Assembly: GCF_017939615.1 (NCBI RefSeq)
Contig: NZ_JAGKSR010000001.1
Coordinates: 186,001 to 250,000 of the forward strand
Reading direction: 5' to 3'
DNA from: Microbacterium sp. BLY
GTDB lineage: Bacteria; Actinomycetota; Actinomycetes; Actinomycetales; Microbacteriaceae
DNA: 64,000 nucleotides
Of the stretch, positions 5,998-64,000 are shown in pieces. The stretch's first letter is position 1, and each line of letters begins with the position of its first letter. The notes under the pieces were generated by a model. It ran no database searches. It worked only from the letters and a program-made list of their open reading frames with translations, and had not been told where the DNA came from. A program made the translations under genes and the position numbers.

Positions 5998-6449
5998 GCG
6001 GCCTCCTCCTCGGCGCCGACGAGCAGGACGCTCGTAGCCGTGACGACGTGGGCTCCGCCGTCGTCGGTGATCTCGGCCTCGCTGGTGATCATGGCGTTGC
6101 CGCCTATCATGCGGATGCCGGTGACGCGCAGCTGCGCGGTCAGCTCGTCGCCCGCGACGATCGGCCGCGTGTAACGGAACCGCTGCTCGGCGTGGATGGT
6201 CCGCGCCAGCACGATGCCGGAATCGGGCTGGGCCAGCAGCTGCTGCAGCGTGAGGTCCTGCAGGACCATCGCGAAGGTCGGGGGCGCCACCACGTCGGCG
6301 AAGCCGGCCGCGCGGGCGGCCTCGACGTCGGTGTGCTGCGGGGCGTCGGCGAAGACGGCGCGCGCGAACTCGCGCACCTTCTCCCGCCCAACGAGGTAGG
6401 GGGCGGTCGGCGGGAACTCCCGGCCGACGAGATCTTGGTTCACTGCCAC
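5994..6449 (-). CDS. FAS1-like dehydratase / MaoC N-terminal domain protein, HadA-like
   Basis: 151 residues matching the non-catalytic hot-dog partner of MaoC dehydratases: LVGREFPPTAPYLVGREKVREFARAV at the start, AGFADVVAPPTFAMVL and EQRFRYTRPIVAGDEL later. GTG at 6449 (6 nt after an AGGAT sequence) is taken as start; a second GTG at 6443 is possible. Its last codons overlap the start of the HadB-like gene by ATGA. It presumably binds the acyl chain in a heterodimeric 3-hydroxyacyl dehydratase. Confidence 0.82.
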   Translation of the reverse strand: MAVNQDLVGREFPPTAPYLVGREKVREFARAVFADAPQHTDVEAARAAGFADVVAPPTFAMVLQDLTLQQLLAQPDSGIVLARTIHAEQRFRYTRPIVAGDELTAQLRVTGIRMIGGNAMITSEAEITDDGGAHVVTATSVLLVGAEEEAA

Positions 6450-6507
6450 CCGTCGATCCTACCGAGGCCCGCCGACAGGCCGGCTCCGGCGACGCCGGGG
6501 AAACCGA

Positions 6508-7305
6508 TCAGCCGCGTCGCCGACCGCGGACGGCCTTGATCCCCATCTGCACCGCGATCACCACGAGATACGCGGCGAAGAGAAGGTTGCCGACGGTCGG
6601 GTCGACGATGGTCGCCAGCCAGGCGCCGAGCGCCGTGGTCGTGCACGCCGAGACGCCGATGAGCAGCGCGGCGACGAGATCGACGTTCCGGTTGCGGAGG
6701 TTGCCGACCGTGCCGGAGAGAGCGGTCGGGATCATCATCAGCAGCGACGTGCCCTTCGCGACGAGGTCGCTCGTGCCGAACGCGAGCATGAGCACCGGGA
6801 CGACGATCACGCCGCCGCCGACACCGATGAGACCGGCCAGGACGCCGGTGCCGATCCCCACCGCGACCAGGGCGGCGCCGGTCAGCCAGGTGAGCTCGAA
6901 CACGGCGTCGCGCGACGGGATCACGAGGAACAGGCTCACGATCACGATCGCGAGGAAGCCGACGAAACCCCAGCGGAGCGCGGTCTGCGAGATCCGCGGA
7001 AGCAGCCGAGTGCCGATCTGGGCGCCCACCACGGCCCCGGCGGCGAGGATCAGCGCCGGGATCCAGGCGACCGAGCCGGAGGCGGCGTACGAGATGACGC
7101 CGACGGCCGCCGTCGGGACGATCGCGGCCAACGAGGTTCCGGCCGCGAGTCGCTGGTCGAACGCGAGCAGGAGCACCAGCAGCGGGACGATCACCGTGCC
7201 GCCGCCGACGCCGAAGAGACCGGAGAGGAGGCCGGCGAGGAGGCCGATGCCGATGAACGCCGCGTAGGCGCGAGGCCCGCGCTTCAGGACCGTCGCATCG
7301 TTCAC
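6508..7305 (-). CDS. TSUP (TauE/SafE) family membrane permease
   Basis: 265 residues with about eight membrane helices and the duplicated glycine-rich TSUP signatures SGLFGVGGGTVIVPLL (N-terminal half) and AGLIGVGGGVIVVPVL (C-terminal half). The family exports or imports sulfite, sulfoacetate, sulfonates or other small anions. The gene is single, with no sulfur-metabolism neighbour, so the substrate cannot be named. It is 58 bp upstream of the dehydratase operon on the same strand. Confidence 0.88.
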   Translation of the reverse strand: MNDATVLKRGPRAYAAFIGIGLLAGLLSGLFGVGGGTVIVPLLVLLLAFDQRLAAGTSLAAIVPTAAVGVISYAASGSVAWIPALILAAGAVVGAQIGTRLLPRISQTALRWGFVGFLAIVIVSLFLVIPSRDAVFELTWLTGAALVAVGIGTGVLAGLIGVGGGVIVVPVLMLAFGTSDLVAKGTSLLMMIPTALSGTVGNLRNRNVDLVAALLIGVSACTTTALGAWLATIVDPTVGNLLFAAYLVVIAVQMGIKAVRGRRRG

Positions 7306-7397
7306 CGGATCAGCCTACTCCCGGCCCCTCCCTCGCCCGAATCGCGGCGGATCAGACCTCCGAGTCCGCTGTGACGGGCACCGATCGCGGGTGAACG

Positions 7398-7435
7398 ACG
7401 AAGCCCGCCACCCCGGAAGGGGCGGCGGGCTTCGT
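7398..7435 (-). terminator. intrinsic terminator of the alpha (infA-rplQ) operon
   Basis: ACGAAGCCCGCC (7398-7409) and GGCGGGCTTCGT (7424-7435) form a perfect 12-bp stem, extended inside by CCCC/GGGG around a GGAA loop, 12 bp after the rplQ stop. There is no long T-tract, as is usual for high-GC actinobacteria. Confidence 0.8.
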
Positions 7436-7447
7436 AGGGAGAGGTCC

Positions 7448-8020
7448 TTACTCGGACTTCTTCTCGACGGCGTCCTCGGCGGCGGCCTCAGCGGCCTCGC
7501 CCTCGGCCTGCGACTCGGCGCCGGCCTCGGCAGCCGTGTCGTCGGCAGCAGTCTCGTCCGCGGGGGCCTCGACGGTCTCCTCGGCGGGAGCCTCCTCGGC
7601 AGCCGGCTTCTCGTCCTTCGGAGCAGCGGCGGCCTTCTTGGTCGACTTCGCCTTCGGGGTGACGGGCTCGAGGACGAGCTCGATCACGGCCATGGGCGCG
7701 TTGTCGCCCTTGCGGTTGCCGACCTTGGTGATGCGCGTGTAGCCACCCTCGCGGTCCGCGACGAGCGGAGCGATCTCGTTGAACAGGACGTGCACGACTT
7801 CCTTGTCACCGATGACCGACAGCACGCGACGGCGGGCGTGCAGGTCTCCGCGCTTGGCGAAGGTGATGAGGCGCTCGGCGAGCGGACGCAGGCGCTTGGC
7901 CTTGGTCTCGGTCGTCTTGATCGACTTGTGGGTGTACAGCGCAGCGGCGAGGTTGGCAAGCAGCAGGCGCTCGTGGGCGGGGCCGCCTCCGAGGCGGGGA
8001 CCCTTGGTGGGCTTGGGCAT
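7448..8020 (-). CDS. rplQ: 50S ribosomal protein L17 with long acidic C-terminal tail
   Basis: 190 residues. The first 120 are the normal L17 domain ([28 protein letters not shown], then [15 protein letters not shown]). The rest is a low-complexity Ala/Glu/Pro tail ending AVEKKSE, so the protein is about 70 residues longer than compact L17 proteins. L17 binds 23S rRNA near the exit tunnel. It is the last gene of the alpha operon, 34 bp after rpoA, followed by a strong hairpin. Confidence 0.97.
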
Positions 8021-8054
8021 AATCGTCTAACTCCTGGTCAGAAAGGGTCGGGTA

Positions 8055-9044
8055 TCAGAAGGACTCGTCTTCGCTGCCGCCGTAGAAGTGGGCGCCGTCG
8101 AAACCGGGCACCGAATCCTTGAGCGACAGACCGAGCGAGATGAGCTTGTCGCGCACCTCGTCGACCGACTTCTGGCCGAAATTGCGGATGTTCATGAGCT
8201 GCGTCTCCGACAGGGCGACGAGCTCAGAAACGGTGTTGATGCCCTCACGCTTCAGGCAGTTGTACGAGCGGACCGACAGGTCGAGGTCCTCGATCGGCAT
8301 CGACAGCTCGCTGGAGTTCACAGCCTCCACCGGCGCCGGGCCGATCTCGATGCCCTCGGCCTCGACGTTCAGCTCGCGGGCGAGGCCGAACAGCTCGGTG
8401 AGCGTCTTGGCGGCCGACGCGACGGCGTCGCGGGGGCTGATCGCCGACTTGGTCTCGACGTCGAGGATGAGCTTGTCGAAGTCGGTGCGCTCACCGGCAC
8501 GGGTGGCGTCGACGCGGTAGCTGACCTTGAGCACGGGCGAGTAGATCGAGTCGATCGGGATCTGCCCGGCCTCGGCGTACTCGTTGCGGTTCTGCGTCGC
8601 GGAGACGTAGCCACGGCCGCGCTCGATGGTGAGCTCGAGCTCGAACTTGGCGGTGTCGTTGAGCGTCGCGATGACGAGCTCGGGGTTGTGCACCTCGACA
8701 CCGGCCGGAGCCGAGATGTCGGCGGCGGTCACTTCACCGGCACCGGTCTTGCGAAGGTACGCGGTGATGGGCTCGTCGCGCTCGCTGGAGACGACCAGCT
8801 GCTTGATGTTGAGGATGATCTCGGTGACATCCTCCTTCACGCCGGGGATCGTGCTGAACTCGTGCAGCACACCGTCGATGCGGACGCTGGTGACAGCGGC
8901 GCCGGGGATCGACGACAGCAGGCTGCGGCGCAGCGCGTTGCCGATCGTGTAGCCGAAGCCGGGCTCCAGAGGCTCGATGATGAACCGGCTCCGGTTCTCG
9001 ACGATCTTTTCCTCGGTCAGTGTGGGACGCTGTGCAATAAGCAC
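8055..9044 (-). CDS. rpoA: DNA-directed RNA polymerase alpha subunit
   Basis: 329 residues, full length. The N-terminal assembly domain shows [25 protein letters not shown]. The C-terminal domain (from about residue 250) shows [16 protein letters not shown] and [13 protein letters not shown], the helix-hairpin-helix parts that bind UP elements and activators. GTG at 9044 gives the standard MLIAQRPTL start. It is transcribed after rpsK with a repeat-containing hairpin in between. Confidence 0.98.
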
Positions 9045-9131
9045 TCTGTGTTCCTTTCGATCACATGCCCGCTATATGACATGTGGTGGGGTGAGGTCTT
9101 GAGTTGTGGAAGTCGATGCCCCACGCGGGGC

Positions 9132-9189
9132 GCCGAGCCGCTCACCCCGTCATGGCTCCCTGAGCCTGTCGAAGGGTGAGCGGCTCGGC
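9132..9189. repeat. hairpin carrying a copy of the dispersed repeat (rpsK-rpoA gap)
   Basis: Two perfect 16-base arms, 9132-9147 and 9174-9189, enclose the dispersed repeat CCCTGAGCCTGTCGAAGGG (9158-9176), part of which belongs to the right arm. It sits between the rpsK stop and the rpoA start inside the alpha operon. It may set differential mRNA stability or attenuate transcription into rpoA. Confidence 0.75.
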
Positions 9190-9196
9190 ACACGCA

Positions 9197-9595
9197 TCAG
9201 ACGCGGCGACGCTTCGGCGGGCGGCAGCCGTTGTGCGCCTGCGGGGTGACATCCTGGATCGAACCCACCTCGAGGCCGGCGGCCTGCAGCGAGCGGATCG
9301 CGGTCTCGCGGCCGGAGCCCGGACCCTTCACGAAGACGTCGACCTTCTTGACGCCGTGCTCCTGCGCCTGGCGGGCGGCCGACTCGGCGGCCATGCCTGC
9401 GGCGTACGGGGTCGACTTGCGGGAGCCCTTGAAGCCCACGCCACCCGACGACGCCCAGCTGATGACAGCGCCGGACGGGTCGGTGATCGAAACGATGGTG
9501 TTGTTGAACGTCGACTTGATGTGGGCCTGGCCCAGCGCGATGTTCTTCTTCTCCTTGCGGCGCGGCTTGCGCGCGGCGGCCTTGGGTGCAGCCAT
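9197..9595 (-). CDS. rpsK: 30S ribosomal protein S11
   Basis: 132 residues, full length: basic N-terminal extension [13 protein letters not shown], core [22 protein letters not shown] and conserved C-terminal [19 protein letters not shown]11 forms part of the 30S platform and the mRNA exit region. The order rpsM-rpsK-rpoA-rplQ is the usual alpha operon, except that rpsD is not between rpsK and rpoA. Confidence 0.98.
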
Positions 9596-9625
9596 GAAAG
9601 TGTTCTCCTAGTCCCTGGCCGCTGC

Positions 9626-10000
9626 TTAGCGGGCCTTCTTCTTGCCGGCGACGGTGCGCTTCGGGCCCTTGCGGGTACGGGCGTTGGTCTTGGTGCGCTG
9701 ACCGCGGACCGGGAGGCCACGACGGTGGCGCAGGCCCTCGTAGGAGCCGATCTCGACCTTGCGGCGGATGTCTGCGGCGACCTCGCGGCGCAGGTCACCC
9801 TCCACCTTGTAGTTGCCTTCGATGTAGTCGCGGAGGGCGACGAGCTGGTCGTCGCTGAGGTCCTTCACGCGGATGCTCTCGTCGATGTCGGTCGCCTTGA
9901 GGATCTCGACCGAGCGGGTACGGCCGACGCCGTAGATGTAGGTAAGGGCGATCACCACGCGCTTGTCGCGCGGGATGTCAACGCCGGCAAGACGTGCCAT
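9626..10000 (-). CDS. rpsM: 30S ribosomal protein S13
   Basis: 124 residues: [24 protein letters not shown] at the start, the H2TH-like part, and the basic tail [19 protein letters not shown] that reaches the decoding-site tRNAs. S13 sits in the head of the 30S subunit and contacts L5 across the subunit bridge. It lies 30 bp before rpsK and 180 bp after rpmJ, with a single dispersed repeat in that upstream gap. Confidence 0.98.
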
Positions 10001-10097
10001 GCGGTTCTCCTGGGTGTTGTGGAGGTATGGAGCAGGATCGGTGCCCGGGCCTCCGCCCCGAGGTGTCAGCCCCCACGGCTCCGCCGGTTACCCGGTC

Positions 10098-10114
10098 GCT
10101 GAGCCTGTCGAAGC
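10098..10114. repeat. dispersed repeat copy, rpmJ-rpsM gap
   Basis: GCTGAGCCTGTCGAAGC, a copy of the core found also at 9158, 10355, 12921, 17322, 17346, 24148, 26570, 28802 and 62057. It lies between the rpmJ stop and rpsM start in the 180-bp gap of the alpha operon, which otherwise shows no gene. Confidence 0.7.
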
Positions 10115-10180
10115 GTCTGATCCTGCCGTGTCGTATTGAGTTATGAGAGTGCGAGAGCGGCGCTCACGCAGCGGGGGCGC

Positions 10181-10297
10181 TCAGCCCTGGCGCTGCTTGT
10201 GGCGCGGGTTGCTCTTGCAGATCACCATGACGCGGCCGTGGCGGCGGATCACCTTGCAGTGATCGCAGATCGGCTTGACGCTGGGGTTGACCTTCAT
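10181..10297 (-). CDS. rpmJ: 50S ribosomal protein L36
   Basis: A 38-residue gene, starting [21 protein letters not shown] and ending NPRHKQRQG. It keeps the zinc-ribbon ligands (CDHC, a later Cys and His), so it is the C+ form of L36. It lies between infA and rpsM, the usual place, 97 bp after infA with a dispersed repeat in the gap. Confidence 0.97.
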
Positions 10298-10354
10298 GAT
10301 GTTTCCTGTTCGCTGTCTTCGTGCTGCCCGGTGTCCGACCTCTGAGACCGGGGT

Positions 10355-61008: not shown

Positions 61009-61299
61009 TCAGCGGTGCGGGTTGCTGTCCTTGCCGTCGAGCCAGAGCTCGTCGGTCTTGTCGGCATGCGTCCCCGTGGTGCCGACGTGCTTGTCGCTGA
61101 TCTTCGGCCCCTTCAGGATGACGTGGACCATCGCCTGCGCGTGGCCGTGGCCGAGGCCGTACTCCTCCTTCAGCCAGTTCAGGACCACGGTGGACTTCGT
61201 GCTCTCGTCGAACCCCTGCTCGTGAGCGAGGGCGATGAACTGCCGCGGCGTGAGGCCGGTCTGGGTCTCGACCTTGTCGAGGTACGCCTGGAAGGACAT
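61009..61299 (-). CDS. DUF4287 domain protein
   Basis: 96 residues: SFQAYLDKVETQTGLTPRQFIALAHEQGF and KEEYGLGHGHAQAMVHVIL, matching the short DUF4287 family, thought to bind small ligands or DNA. ATG at 61299 preferred over a longer frame. It lies alone between menA and the Lrp gene. Confidence 0.85.
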   Translation of the reverse strand: MSFQAYLDKVETQTGLTPRQFIALAHEQGFDESTKSTVVLNWLKEEYGLGHGHAQAMVHVILKGPKISDKHVGTTGTHADKTDELWLDGKDSNPHR

Positions 61300-61360
61300 G
61301 CTTCTCTCCGTTCTCCGTCCCCGCGAGGACCGTCGGGATGATGATCCCACGCGGGCCGGT

Positions 61361-61819
61361 CTAATCGGCGGTGGCGACGGGGATGATCGGGCGGTGCTCG
61401 TAGTAGGTCTGCAGCACCACGGTCGTGCGGGTGCTCACGTTCGCCGCGAGGCGCACATCGCGGACGAGCTGCTCCAGATCGCGCGGCGTCGGCACCCGGA
61501 CGAAGAGCATGTAGCTCGCGTCGCCGGCGATGGAGTGGCACGCCTCGATGGCGTCGAGGTGCTCCAGGAGCTCCGGGGCGTTGTCGGGCTGGGCCGGATC
61601 GAGCGGGGTGATCTCGATGAAGGCGGAGAGCGGGGTGCCCACCTGCTCGGGGTCGAGCACCGCCCGGTAACCGGCGATCACCCCGCGCGTCTCGAGCCTC
61701 CGCAGGCGGGACTGCACCGCCGACACGGAGAGCCCCACGGCGTCGGAGAGCTGCGACAGCGTCGCCCGCCCGTCGCGGGAGATGGTCGCCAGGATCGCAC
61801 GGTCGACAGAATCATCCAT
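61361..61819 (-). CDS. Lrp/AsnC-family transcriptional regulator
   Basis: 152 residues: HTH (SQLSDAVGLSVSAVQSRLRRLETRGVI) and RAM domain (SAFIEITPL, DASYMLFVRVPTPRDLEQLV). Divergent from the DUF6421-like gene with 72 bp between starts, a classical divergent regulator arrangement. It most likely responds to an amino acid or related metabolite. Confidence 0.9.
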   Translation of the reverse strand: MDDSVDRAILATISRDGRATLSQLSDAVGLSVSAVQSRLRRLETRGVIAGYRAVLDPEQVGTPLSAFIEITPLDPAQPDNAPELLEHLDAIEACHSIAGDASYMLFVRVPTPRDLEQLVRDVRLAANVSTRTTVVLQTYYEHRPIIPVATAD

Positions 61820-61839
61820 GGCTGTAAGATTATCGTCAG

Positions 61840-61860
61840 GATTCCGTTATTGCCGGAATC
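61840..61860. promoter_or_regulatory. inverted repeat between the Lrp gene and the DUF6421-like gene
   Basis: GATTCCG (61840-61846) and CGGAATC (61854-61860) are perfect 7-bp inverted repeats with a 7-bp spacer, in the divergent gap. On the minus strand GATAAT lies just downstream as a possible -10 of the Lrp gene. A likely Lrp-type binding site controlling both genes. Confidence 0.6.
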
Positions 61861-61891
61861 TTTCCGTCTTTCACTGCGATCGGAGGTTCCG

Positions 61892-63343
61892 ATGTCCCTC
61901 GTTTCCGCCAACAGTTCCGCTGTCCAGGCCGTCGTCGGCGAACCCGAGGTCGTCGAGGACGCGTCGATCGCGGAGAACTCCGCCGCCTGGGCGCAGCTCA
62001 AGCGGGCCGCGATCGCCCTCCGCGAGCTGCAGATCAAGGACGGCTCGATCCCTGGCGCTTCGACAAGCTCAGCGACCCAGGACCAGGCGACGGCGCTCGT
62101 CGGGGAGATCACCGCCGCGATCCGGGCCCTCGCCCCCGCCTTCCCGCACGACGCGGACTACCTCGCGGCCTCCGTCGCCGACTTCGAGCGCTGGGCGTCC
62201 GAGGGCTTCGGCGTGCCCGACTTCCTCGACTCGCTCGTGGCGTTCCAGCCGCAGCAGCACCGCATCGACGGCATCCGACACCTCGTGGTCTTCCCGATGT
62301 ACACGCAGAACGGCTCCAGCGACCGCCTGGTCGAGGCGCTCATCGTCGAGACCATCTGGCCGGAGTTCATCGCGGCGCTCGAGGCCGGCGACTACGGCAA
62401 CAAGCTCTTCGTCTCGCTGCGCCTCGTGGACTTCACCCCCGGGTACGACACGAACTCCGCGGTGCTCTTCCCGGAGACCGTCGCCATGCGCGAGATCCCG
62501 ACCTTCACGTGGGGAGCGATCTTCCAGGACCGCGAGGCCGCCCGTTACCGCCGCGTGGTCCGTGCGGCCGCCGGCATCACCAACCTCGACCTCCCGGAGC
62601 GTGCGGCGGCGATGCTCGAGGATCAGGAGATCGCCGAGAAGACGTTCGTGATGTGGGACATCATCCACGACCGCACCCACATGCGCGGGGACCTGCCCTT
62701 CGACCCGTTCATGATCAAGCAGCGGATGCCGTTCTTCCTCTACTCGCTGGAGGAGATGCGCTGCGACATGACGGCGTTCCGCGAATCGGTGAAGATCGAG
62801 CGGGCGCTCGACGCCCGAGTCGCCGCGGGCGAGGAGCTCACGGAGACCGAGCGCGAGATGCACGAGTACGCGCACCTCGTGCAGTACGCCGTCATCTTCG
62901 ACCGCATCTTCCGCTTCGCCATCACCGGCACCCGCGTGCGCAACTACGACGCGGTGGGCGGCCAGCTCCTGTTCGCGTGGCTGCACCAGCGCGGCGTCCT
63001 GCACTGGACCGACACGGCCCTCGCCTTCGACTGGGAGAACGTTCCGGACGCGGTGGTCGCCCTCGGCGACGCGATCGACGACCTGTACTGGCACTCGATC
63101 GACCGCCCGAAGGTCGCGCACTGGCTCGCCGCCTACGAGCTGGTCCGCGGCACGCTGACTCCGCATCCTGCGTCGCAGTGGGCGCGCGGTCTGCCGGACG
63201 AGATCCTCGCCGGAGCGCCGAAGGGATACACCGACGCCGTGCTGGACGACGAGTTCCCGCTGTCGATGTTCTTCGAGACGCTGGACAAGAAGATGAAGCC
63301 GGTCATCGAGTCGACGGTCGGCATCCGCGGTACGGACGACTGA
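61892..63343 (+). CDS. DUF6421-like protein, possible metal-dependent enzyme
   Basis: 483 residues, soluble. I assign it to the DUF6421-type family from its context and length, not from a search. Conserved-looking parts: LVVFPMYTQNGSSDRLVEALIVE, AVLFPETVAMREIPTFTWGAIFQDREA, WDIIHDRTHMRGDLPFDPFM and LEEMRCDMTAF. HDRTH (259-263) and EEMRCD (287-292) look like a zincin-type metal site, HDxxH plus EExxxD. GGAGG lies 5 nt before the ATG. It is flanked by Lrp (divergent) and an SDR (same strand), so it may be a metabolic enzyme of an amino-acid-related pathway. Confidence 0.7.
   Translation: MSLVSANSSAVQAVVGEPEVVEDASIAENSAAWAQLKRAAIALRELQIKDGSIPGASTSSATQDQATALVGEITAAIRALAPAFPHDADYLAASVADFERWASEGFGVPDFLDSLVAFQPQQHRIDGIRHLVVFPMYTQNGSSDRLVEALIVETIWPEFIAALEAGDYGNKLFVSLRLVDFTPGYDTNSAVLFPETVAMREIPTFTWGAIFQDREAARYRRVVRAAAGITNLDLPERAAAMLEDQEIAEKTFVMWDIIHDRTHMRGDLPFDPFMIKQRMPFFLYSLEEMRCDMTAFRESVKIERALDARVAAGEELTETEREMHEYAHLVQYAVIFDRIFRFAITGTRVRNYDAVGGQLLFAWLHQRGVLHWTDTALAFDWENVPDAVVALGDAIDDLYWHSIDRPKVAHWLAAYELVRGTLTPHPASQWARGLPDEILAGAPKGYTDAVLDDEFPLSMFFETLDKKMKPVIESTVGIRGTDD
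62051..62081. repeat. dispersed repeat copy inside the DUF6421-like gene
   Basis: GCTTCGACAAGCTCAGCG (62057-62074) flanked by CCTGG (62051) and CCAGG (to 62081), a hairpin. In frame it encodes about residues 54-63, PGASTSSATQ, in a low-complexity stretch near the N-terminus. Confidence 0.65.
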
Positions 63344-63379
63344 TCCGCACCGCTCCGCTGTGACGCTGGGGCGCACCCC

Positions 63380-63420
63380 CTCTGCGGCCGGAGACCCGGA
63401 TCCCGGGTCCGGCCGCAGAG
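63380..63420. terminator. strong hairpin between the DUF6421-like and SDR genes
   Basis: CTCTGCGGCCG (63380-63390) pairs with CGGCCGCAGAG (63410-63420), and inside it GACCCGG pairs with CCGGGTC. It lies 36 bp after the DUF6421-like stop and 25 bp before the SDR start. It may end most transcripts before the SDR or act as a stability element. Confidence 0.6.
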
Positions 63421-63445
63421 GCATCTCCGACCGAGAGGACACCGC

Positions 63446-64000
63446 ATGACGACGCCGACGAGCCAGGGAGCCCGGGACCGCGTGGTCGTGCTGGCCGGGG
63501 CAACGAGCGCCGCGGGCCTCGCCGCGACCCGTGCCCTGCGCGATGCCGGCGCCCGGGTGATCGTCACGGGACGCTCCGCCGAACGCCTGTGCCCTCTCGC
63601 TGACGCCGGCGCGGAGACCGTCGTCGCCGACGCCACCTCCCCCGCCGAGATGACCGCGCTCGCCGGTCGGCTCGACACGGTCGACGCGGTGGTGCCGCTC
63701 GTGGGCGGCTGGCGGGGTGGCGGCGGCCTCGCCGGGCAGAGGGACGACGACTTCGCGGCACTGCTGCCGGCGCTGGAGGCCGTGCGGGCGACGAGCCGTG
63801 CCTTCGACGCCCGGCTCCGCGCCTCCCCCGCCGGACGGTTCGCGATCGTCTCGTCCACCGCTGTCGCCCGACCCCTCGCCGGCGGAGCGAACTACGCAGC
63901 GGTCAAGGCGGCGAGCGAGGCCTGGACCCGTGCCGTCGCCCAGGGCTTCTCCAAGGCGGCGCGCGAGGCCGACGAACCGCTGCGCGCCGCTGCCGTCGTG
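63446..64000 (+). CDS. short-chain dehydrogenase (partial, right edge)
   Basis: 185 codons seen, open to the right edge. LAGATSAAGLAATRAL (cofactor), then SSTAVARPLAGGANYAAVKAASEAW with the Y-x3-K catalytic pair. ATG at 63446 with GAGAGGA upstream. Together with Lrp and the DUF6421-like gene it forms a module; the C-terminal part is outside. Confidence 0.85.
   Translation, partial: MTTPTSQGARDRVVVLAGATSAAGLAATRALRDAGARVIVTGRSAERLCPLADAGAETVVADATSPAEMTALAGRLDTVDAVVPLVGGWRGGGGLAGQRDDDFAALLPALEAVRATSRAFDARLRASPAGRFAIVSSTAVARPLAGGANYAAVKAASEAWTRAVAQGFSKAAREADEPLRAAAVV

Follow-up and report, generated by a model that had tools for sequence, protein, structure and literature searches.

The right-hand end of the window (the whole stretch of 64,000 nucleotides from Microbacterium sp. 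BLY analysed here) carries a gene for a 483-residue protein that lies divergent from an Lrp-type regulator and is followed by an SDR. What does this protein do, and do its neighbours take part in it? The preliminary description, which placed the three genes and the motifs HDRTH and EEMRCD correctly (Table 1), recognised no known enzyme family here, a view that is wrong as of 2025, since the protein belongs to Pfam family DUF6421 and matches PolE in structure. The DUF6421 family is thus already known, having recently been recognised as iron/pterin-dependent amino-acid oxidases; its definition, which drew on a single antibiotic pathway, left some 10,000 homologues with no assigned function (PMC12614342). 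What is new is a conserved DUF6421–SDR–threonine aldolase cassette with an Lrp palindrome, and the pathway, open to testing, that follows from it.

Table 1. Features of the locus (positions in the window).
Feature	Position	Strand	Basis or remark
Lrp/AsnC-family regulator, 152 aa	61361–61819	−	Pfam; divergent from DUF6421 gene
Second inverted repeat, GATTCCG-N7-CGGAATC	61840–61860	none	Inverted-repeat count in intergenic regions; overlaps main palindrome
Predicted Lrp operator, palindrome CCGGAATCTTTCCGT, consensus CMGGAANNNTTCCKG	61853–61867	none	Recurrence across intergenic regions
GGAGG, ribosome-binding site of DUF6421 gene	61882–61886	+	Intergenic sequence read directly
DUF6421 protein, predicted PolE-type Fe(II)/pterin-dependent amino-acid oxidase, 483 aa	61892–63343	+	PF19985; fold match
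HDRTH (residues 259–263), predicted metal-binding HDxxH motif (H259, H263)	62666–62680	+	Alignment
EEMRCD (residues 287–292), predicted third metal ligand E287 or E288 and neighbours	62750–62767	+	Alignment
SDR with LVGGWRG, 219 aa, predicted quinonoid-dihydropterin reductase	63446–64000	+	adh_short; stop past the window, equivalent to 64105
L-threonine aldolase	Equivalent of 65624–66691, outside the window		PF01212; PDB matches

The 483-residue protein matches PF19985 (DUF6421) over profile positions 2–436 of 437 (E 1.9e-242; 805 bits against a cut-off of 25), and no NCBIfam model matches it. The nearest named relatives are from Microbacterium, with 98% protein identity to Microbacterium sp. 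LCT-H2. Convincing sequence relatives of the 483-residue protein in the PDB are limited to PolE structures (3e-7, or 4.5e-9 with a profile). Likewise, a structural model of the protein (mean pLDDT 85.5) retrieves PolE as the six best Foldseek matches (top 1.8e-12), followed by dipeptidyl peptidase III (DPP III), and VIA-align places the model on PolE with Z 28–29 over 363–364 residues at an rmsd of 3.6–4.0, and on DPP III with Z 9–16.5. PolE is an Fe(II)-, BH4- and O2-dependent L-Ile 3,4-desaturase specific for L-Ile (PMC12614342; Nat Chem 2025). Its soluble motif mutants are inactive, and its family of about 10,000 homologues has the common motif HE/DXXHX(21–23)E, structural homology to DPP III without the peptidase motif, and many members near amino-acid-modifying enzymes (PMC12614342).

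In an alignment of 35 diverse DUF6421 homologues, H259, D260, H263, E287, E288, R290, C291 and D292 are invariant and the first motif reads HDRTH or HDRSH in all 35, so the His and Glu residues on which the preliminary description had staked its metal site held throughout. Their coming together in the predicted structure was checked through the fold match to PolE. EEMRCD aligns with LEELRVD of PolE, and by analogy with DPP III, E288 could be the metal ligand. The H263-X23-E287 spacing fits the PolE-family motif (PMC12614342), and E288 is equally conserved. Additionally, Phe140 and Tyr280 of PolE correspond in the alignment to the conserved F193 and Y352, whereas Tyr157 appears to be replaced by T206, a tentative assignment in a weakly aligned stretch; this pattern suggests that PolE's catalytic core is kept and that the substrate pocket differs. 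The early proposal of a metal-dependent metabolic enzyme is supported by the match in fold and motif to an Fe/pterin enzyme (PMC12614342). From its family, fold and invariant metal-site residues we infer the chemistry of its clade: the DUF6421 protein is very probably an oxidase of the Fe/pterin type. In a deep-branching genome, the DUF6421 gene (L031:6424-8553) has an apparent extra N-terminal stretch of roughly 230 residues.

The partners of this enzyme emerge from a comparison of 92 loci taken from a phylum sample and from named genomes (Microbacterium, Agromyces, Leifsonia, Kocuria, Demequina, Nocardioides, Curtobacterium, Leucobacter, Micrococcus and others), 91 of which have a strong DUF6421 match. 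An SDR ortholog occurs in 80 of these 91 loci and an L-threonine aldolase in 78, whereas an lrp ortholog accompanies 59, Lrp being a neighbour in only part of the range of the cassette. The three genes first noticed are thus conserved together, yet they form an incomplete unit whose wide partners are the SDR and the aldolase; the latter lies just outside the window and was missing from the earlier list of genes, as was the palindrome between lrp and the DUF6421 gene. The order of DUF6421, one SDR ortholog and usually an L-threonine aldolase extends from Microbacterium to another actinobacterial class, in which the genes of one locus (L031) run end to end (DUF6421 6424–8553, SDR 8553–9263, aldolase 9260–10321). 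The frames overlap by a few bases or nearly so in many loci, and those of SDR and aldolase overlap in 7/7 genomes of 7–10 Mb from one class-mate genus. Among the 198 genomes of the phylum sample, the SDR ortholog is present in 10/10 with DUF6421 versus 3/188 without it (Fisher p 1.4e-14). All eight genomes tested that have no adjacent aldolase encode an aldolase ortholog, and in one of them (Curtobacterium) the apparent gap is a contig break, as L132 carries both SDR and aldolase. In Agromyces and some Leifsonia the aldolase gene lies apart from the cassette, and genomes without DUF6421 also have it. Within Microbacterium, DUF6421 was found in 83 of the 89 genomes sampled.

A reverse-strand MFS gene separates the SDR from the aldolase, a position confined to Microbacterium and close relatives. 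This gene and the downstream GntR, ALDH and glutamine-synthetase genes were set aside as cassette members, since their place next to DUF6421 is not conserved beyond Microbacterium and its near relatives. A second DUF6421-like match, short and PolE-sized, occurs in genome G171 (L032:7956-9077, minus strand). It adjoins an FAD-dependent halogenase/hydroxylase-like gene and, as judged by eye, a large nonribosomal-peptide-synthetase-like gene, and is probably part of a natural-product cluster separate from the cassette.

If DUF6421 consumes a pterin, the SDR is a candidate for its recycling. Across the SDR orthologs, the segment LVGGWRG after beta-4 is invariant, as are S136, Y150 and K154. Dihydropteridine reductase (DHPR), in which the catalytic Ser is missing, presumably likewise has a GGW motif at this beta-4 position. 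Full-length searches by sequence, fold and profile return FabG-like SDRs first, with dihydropteridine reductases absent among the listed top matches of the sequence and fold searches, and membership of the dihydropteridine-reductase family is therefore not established by them. A profile of the substrate loop, made from longer orthologs (seven rows, two of them from SDRs without DUF6421) and run against 177,635 distinct PDB sequences, gave five matches, of which the top three are dihydropteridine reductases at E 0.33–0.38, values not significant alone. The window's own SDR has a shortened substrate loop, and the beta-4 segment alone as a query found designed repeat proteins only. The chance that the SDR acts as a pterin reductase is about even.

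On another reading, DUF6421 is Fe/pterin-dependent and the pterin is recycled elsewhere, the SDR being an ordinary carbon-skeleton dehydrogenase for a beta-hydroxy amino acid or for the aldehyde released by the aldolase. Such an enzyme would fit the overall closeness to FabG-type SDRs in sequence and fold, the intact Ser-Tyr-Lys triad and the requirement of an aldolase aldehyde for reduction or oxidation. We nevertheless regard it as rather unlikely: the usual segment after beta-4 is replaced by the invariant LVGGWRG, the loop profile ranks dihydropteridine reductases first, and the SDR is the tightest-linked partner of DUF6421, even where the aldolase is unlinked. Against a role of the SDR in pterin recycling, LVGGWRG-type SDRs occur without DUF6421 in three genomes (L120:3524-4204, L119:7836-8546 and L121:7656-8366); the first adjoins a dnaG-like gene, the place that the whole cassette occupies in the related genome L031.

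As to the pterin itself, the genome encodes GTP cyclohydrolase I, and no PTPS, pterin-4a-carbinolamine dehydratase or aromatic amino-acid hydroxylase was found in it. No association of DUF6421 with pterin-4a-carbinolamine dehydratase, PTPS or Biopterin_H was seen, and an aromatic amino-acid hydroxylase (Biopterin_H) is encoded in 1/198 genomes of the phylum sample. Because the genome has neither PTPS nor pterin-4a-carbinolamine dehydratase, tetrahydrobiopterin from the animal route is probably not the natural cofactor. With PolE, quinoid dihydropteridine reductase raises the activity 2–3 fold in vitro (PMC12614342).

The third member of the cassette carries a Beta_elim_lyase domain (PF01212, 7.5e-46) and aligns over its whole length with L-threonine aldolases (5vye, 2.4e-76; 1v72, a phenylserine aldolase, 4.5e-67). 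Together with the invariant K210, the expected PLP lysine, the domain and these close solved aldolases identify it as an L-threonine aldolase. Such enzymes split beta-hydroxy-alpha-amino acids into glycine and an aldehyde. It is chiefly because one of them keeps a conserved place next to an amino-acid oxidase that DUF6421 is proposed to perform a beta-hydroxylation. That the aldolase acts on the DUF6421 product seems to us evenly balanced. Against beta-hydroxylation stands PolE, which desaturates rather than hydroxylates, and the DUF6421 protein has only about 18% identity to it.

The DUF6421 protein could accordingly desaturate an aliphatic L-amino acid in the manner of PolE, yielding an unusual amino acid that the aldolase and the SDR process or detoxify. 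Such a reaction is favoured by the 3,4-desaturation of L-Ile, for which PolE, the sole characterised family member, is specific, and by the distant G171 relative beside nonribosomal-peptide-like genes. It is improbable all the same, since a desaturated amino acid is no direct substrate of threonine aldolase, the cassette is not accompanied by natural-product genes, and the apparent Thr206 in place of Tyr157 tentatively indicates a pocket that probably differs.

The divergent regulator matches HTH_24 (7e-14) and has both an AsnC-type HTH (HTH_AsnC-type, 4.6e-12) and an AsnC ligand-binding domain (AsnC_trans_reg, 5.3e-10) above the Pfam cut-offs, and is hence a member of the Lrp/AsnC family. The palindrome core MGGAANNNTTCCK is present in 37 of the 58 divergent lrp–DUF6421 intergenic regions and once elsewhere in the same loci, versus a mean of 0.02 in shuffled intergenic regions, a count that overstates independence because many of the compared regions are closely related. 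In the upstream regions of DUF6421 loci without Lrp, the core was found in 0/32. The own genome (3.24 Mb) has three palindrome sites including the lrp–DUF6421 one, and a reversed control pattern is about equally frequent, so that genome-wide only the lrp–DUF6421 site stands out. A Nocardioides locus (L093) contains an exact match (CCGGAAAAGTTCCGG) and a Demequina locus (L059) a near match in different surroundings. The natural reading of the palindrome is a local Lrp switch with a predicted operator common to lrp and DUF6421, which lends support to the early suggestion of Lrp control.

Around lrp, two further groups of genes recur. Immediately downstream of lrp is a DUF4287 gene (window 61009–61350); many Microbacterium genomes have one close to the cassette as well, with no evident link between the two. 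In L054:443-8422 and about 10 other Microbacterium loci, the region upstream of lrp repeatedly contains ABC transporter genes together with an aldehyde dehydrogenase and a class-III-aminotransferase-like gene, apparently a catabolic cluster of its own.

Taken together, these observations suggest the following course of events. DUF6421 would attack a free L-amino acid, probably at the beta carbon, as an oxidase/oxygenase dependent on non-haem Fe(II), a tetrahydropterin and O2; both the substrate and the preference for beta-hydroxylation over desaturation are what we infer. The SDR would most likely return the spent quinonoid dihydropterin to tetrahydropterin with NAD(P)H, and the aldolase would then most likely split the beta-hydroxylated product, giving glycine and an aldehyde. 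Lrp, as the presumed binder of the palindrome, would sense an amino acid and switch the cassette accordingly. The combination of a DUF6421 oxidase, pterin recycling by the SDR, cleavage by the aldolase and an Lrp switch is our best explanation, and we place it just short of an even chance. The full statement, a widespread and previously undescribed actinobacterial pathway in which Fe/tetrahydropterin-dependent beta-hydroxylation of an L-amino acid by DUF6421 is served by a dedicated bacterial dihydropterin reductase and followed by retro-aldol cleavage to glycine and aldehyde, with local Lrp control in Microbacteriaceae and some relatives, is tentative and in our judgement more possible than probable.

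For a large actinobacterial DUF6421 clade, the cassette supplies two candidate partners and a regulator site, and it apparently belongs to ordinary metabolism rather than to an antibiotic cluster. In place of "unknown function" it offers a reaction sequence that is specific and can be tested quickly. Among the papers searched, DUF6421 is named in one, and none joins a pterin-dependent hydroxylase with a threonine aldolase. If the proposed pathway is true, it would bring pterin-dependent oxidation into bacteria that mostly are without classical aromatic amino-acid hydroxylases, as in the own genome and in all but one of the sampled genomes.

Among known systems, PolE of polyoxin biosynthesis (PDB 9j2e, 9j3g) is closest to the DUF6421 protein, the two having in common the fold, the motif and the pairs Tyr280/Y352 and Phe140/F193. 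Distinct from PolE, the DUF6421 protein has HDxxH instead of HExxH and is about 110 residues longer, and its gene stands in a reductase/aldolase cassette, whereas PolE is accompanied by PolF and an antibiotic cluster. The zincin-type site proposed at the outset was right in so far as the overall fold and the EExR-type second motif are also those of DPP III (M49), a zinc enzyme; a zinc metallopeptidase of this type was nevertheless rejected as extremely improbable, because its HEXXGH motif is absent from all 35 homologues, which have HDRTH or HDRSH, the structural match is much weaker than that to PolE (Z 29), the closest solved relatives are iron oxidases, and the conserved neighbours are amino-acid enzymes and not a peptidase context. 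The SDR has in common with dihydropteridine reductase (QDPR/DHPR; PDB 1dhr, 1hdr) the SDR fold, and its substrate-loop profile ranks DHPR first in the PDB at E values not significant alone; unlike DHPR it retains the catalytic Ser, and overall it is no more similar to DHPR than to other SDRs. Finally, the aldolase is strongly similar over its full length to L-threonine/phenylserine aldolases (PDB 5vye, 7w0i, 1v72), down to the invariant K210, and differs from them in its genomic linkage to an Fe/pterin oxidase.
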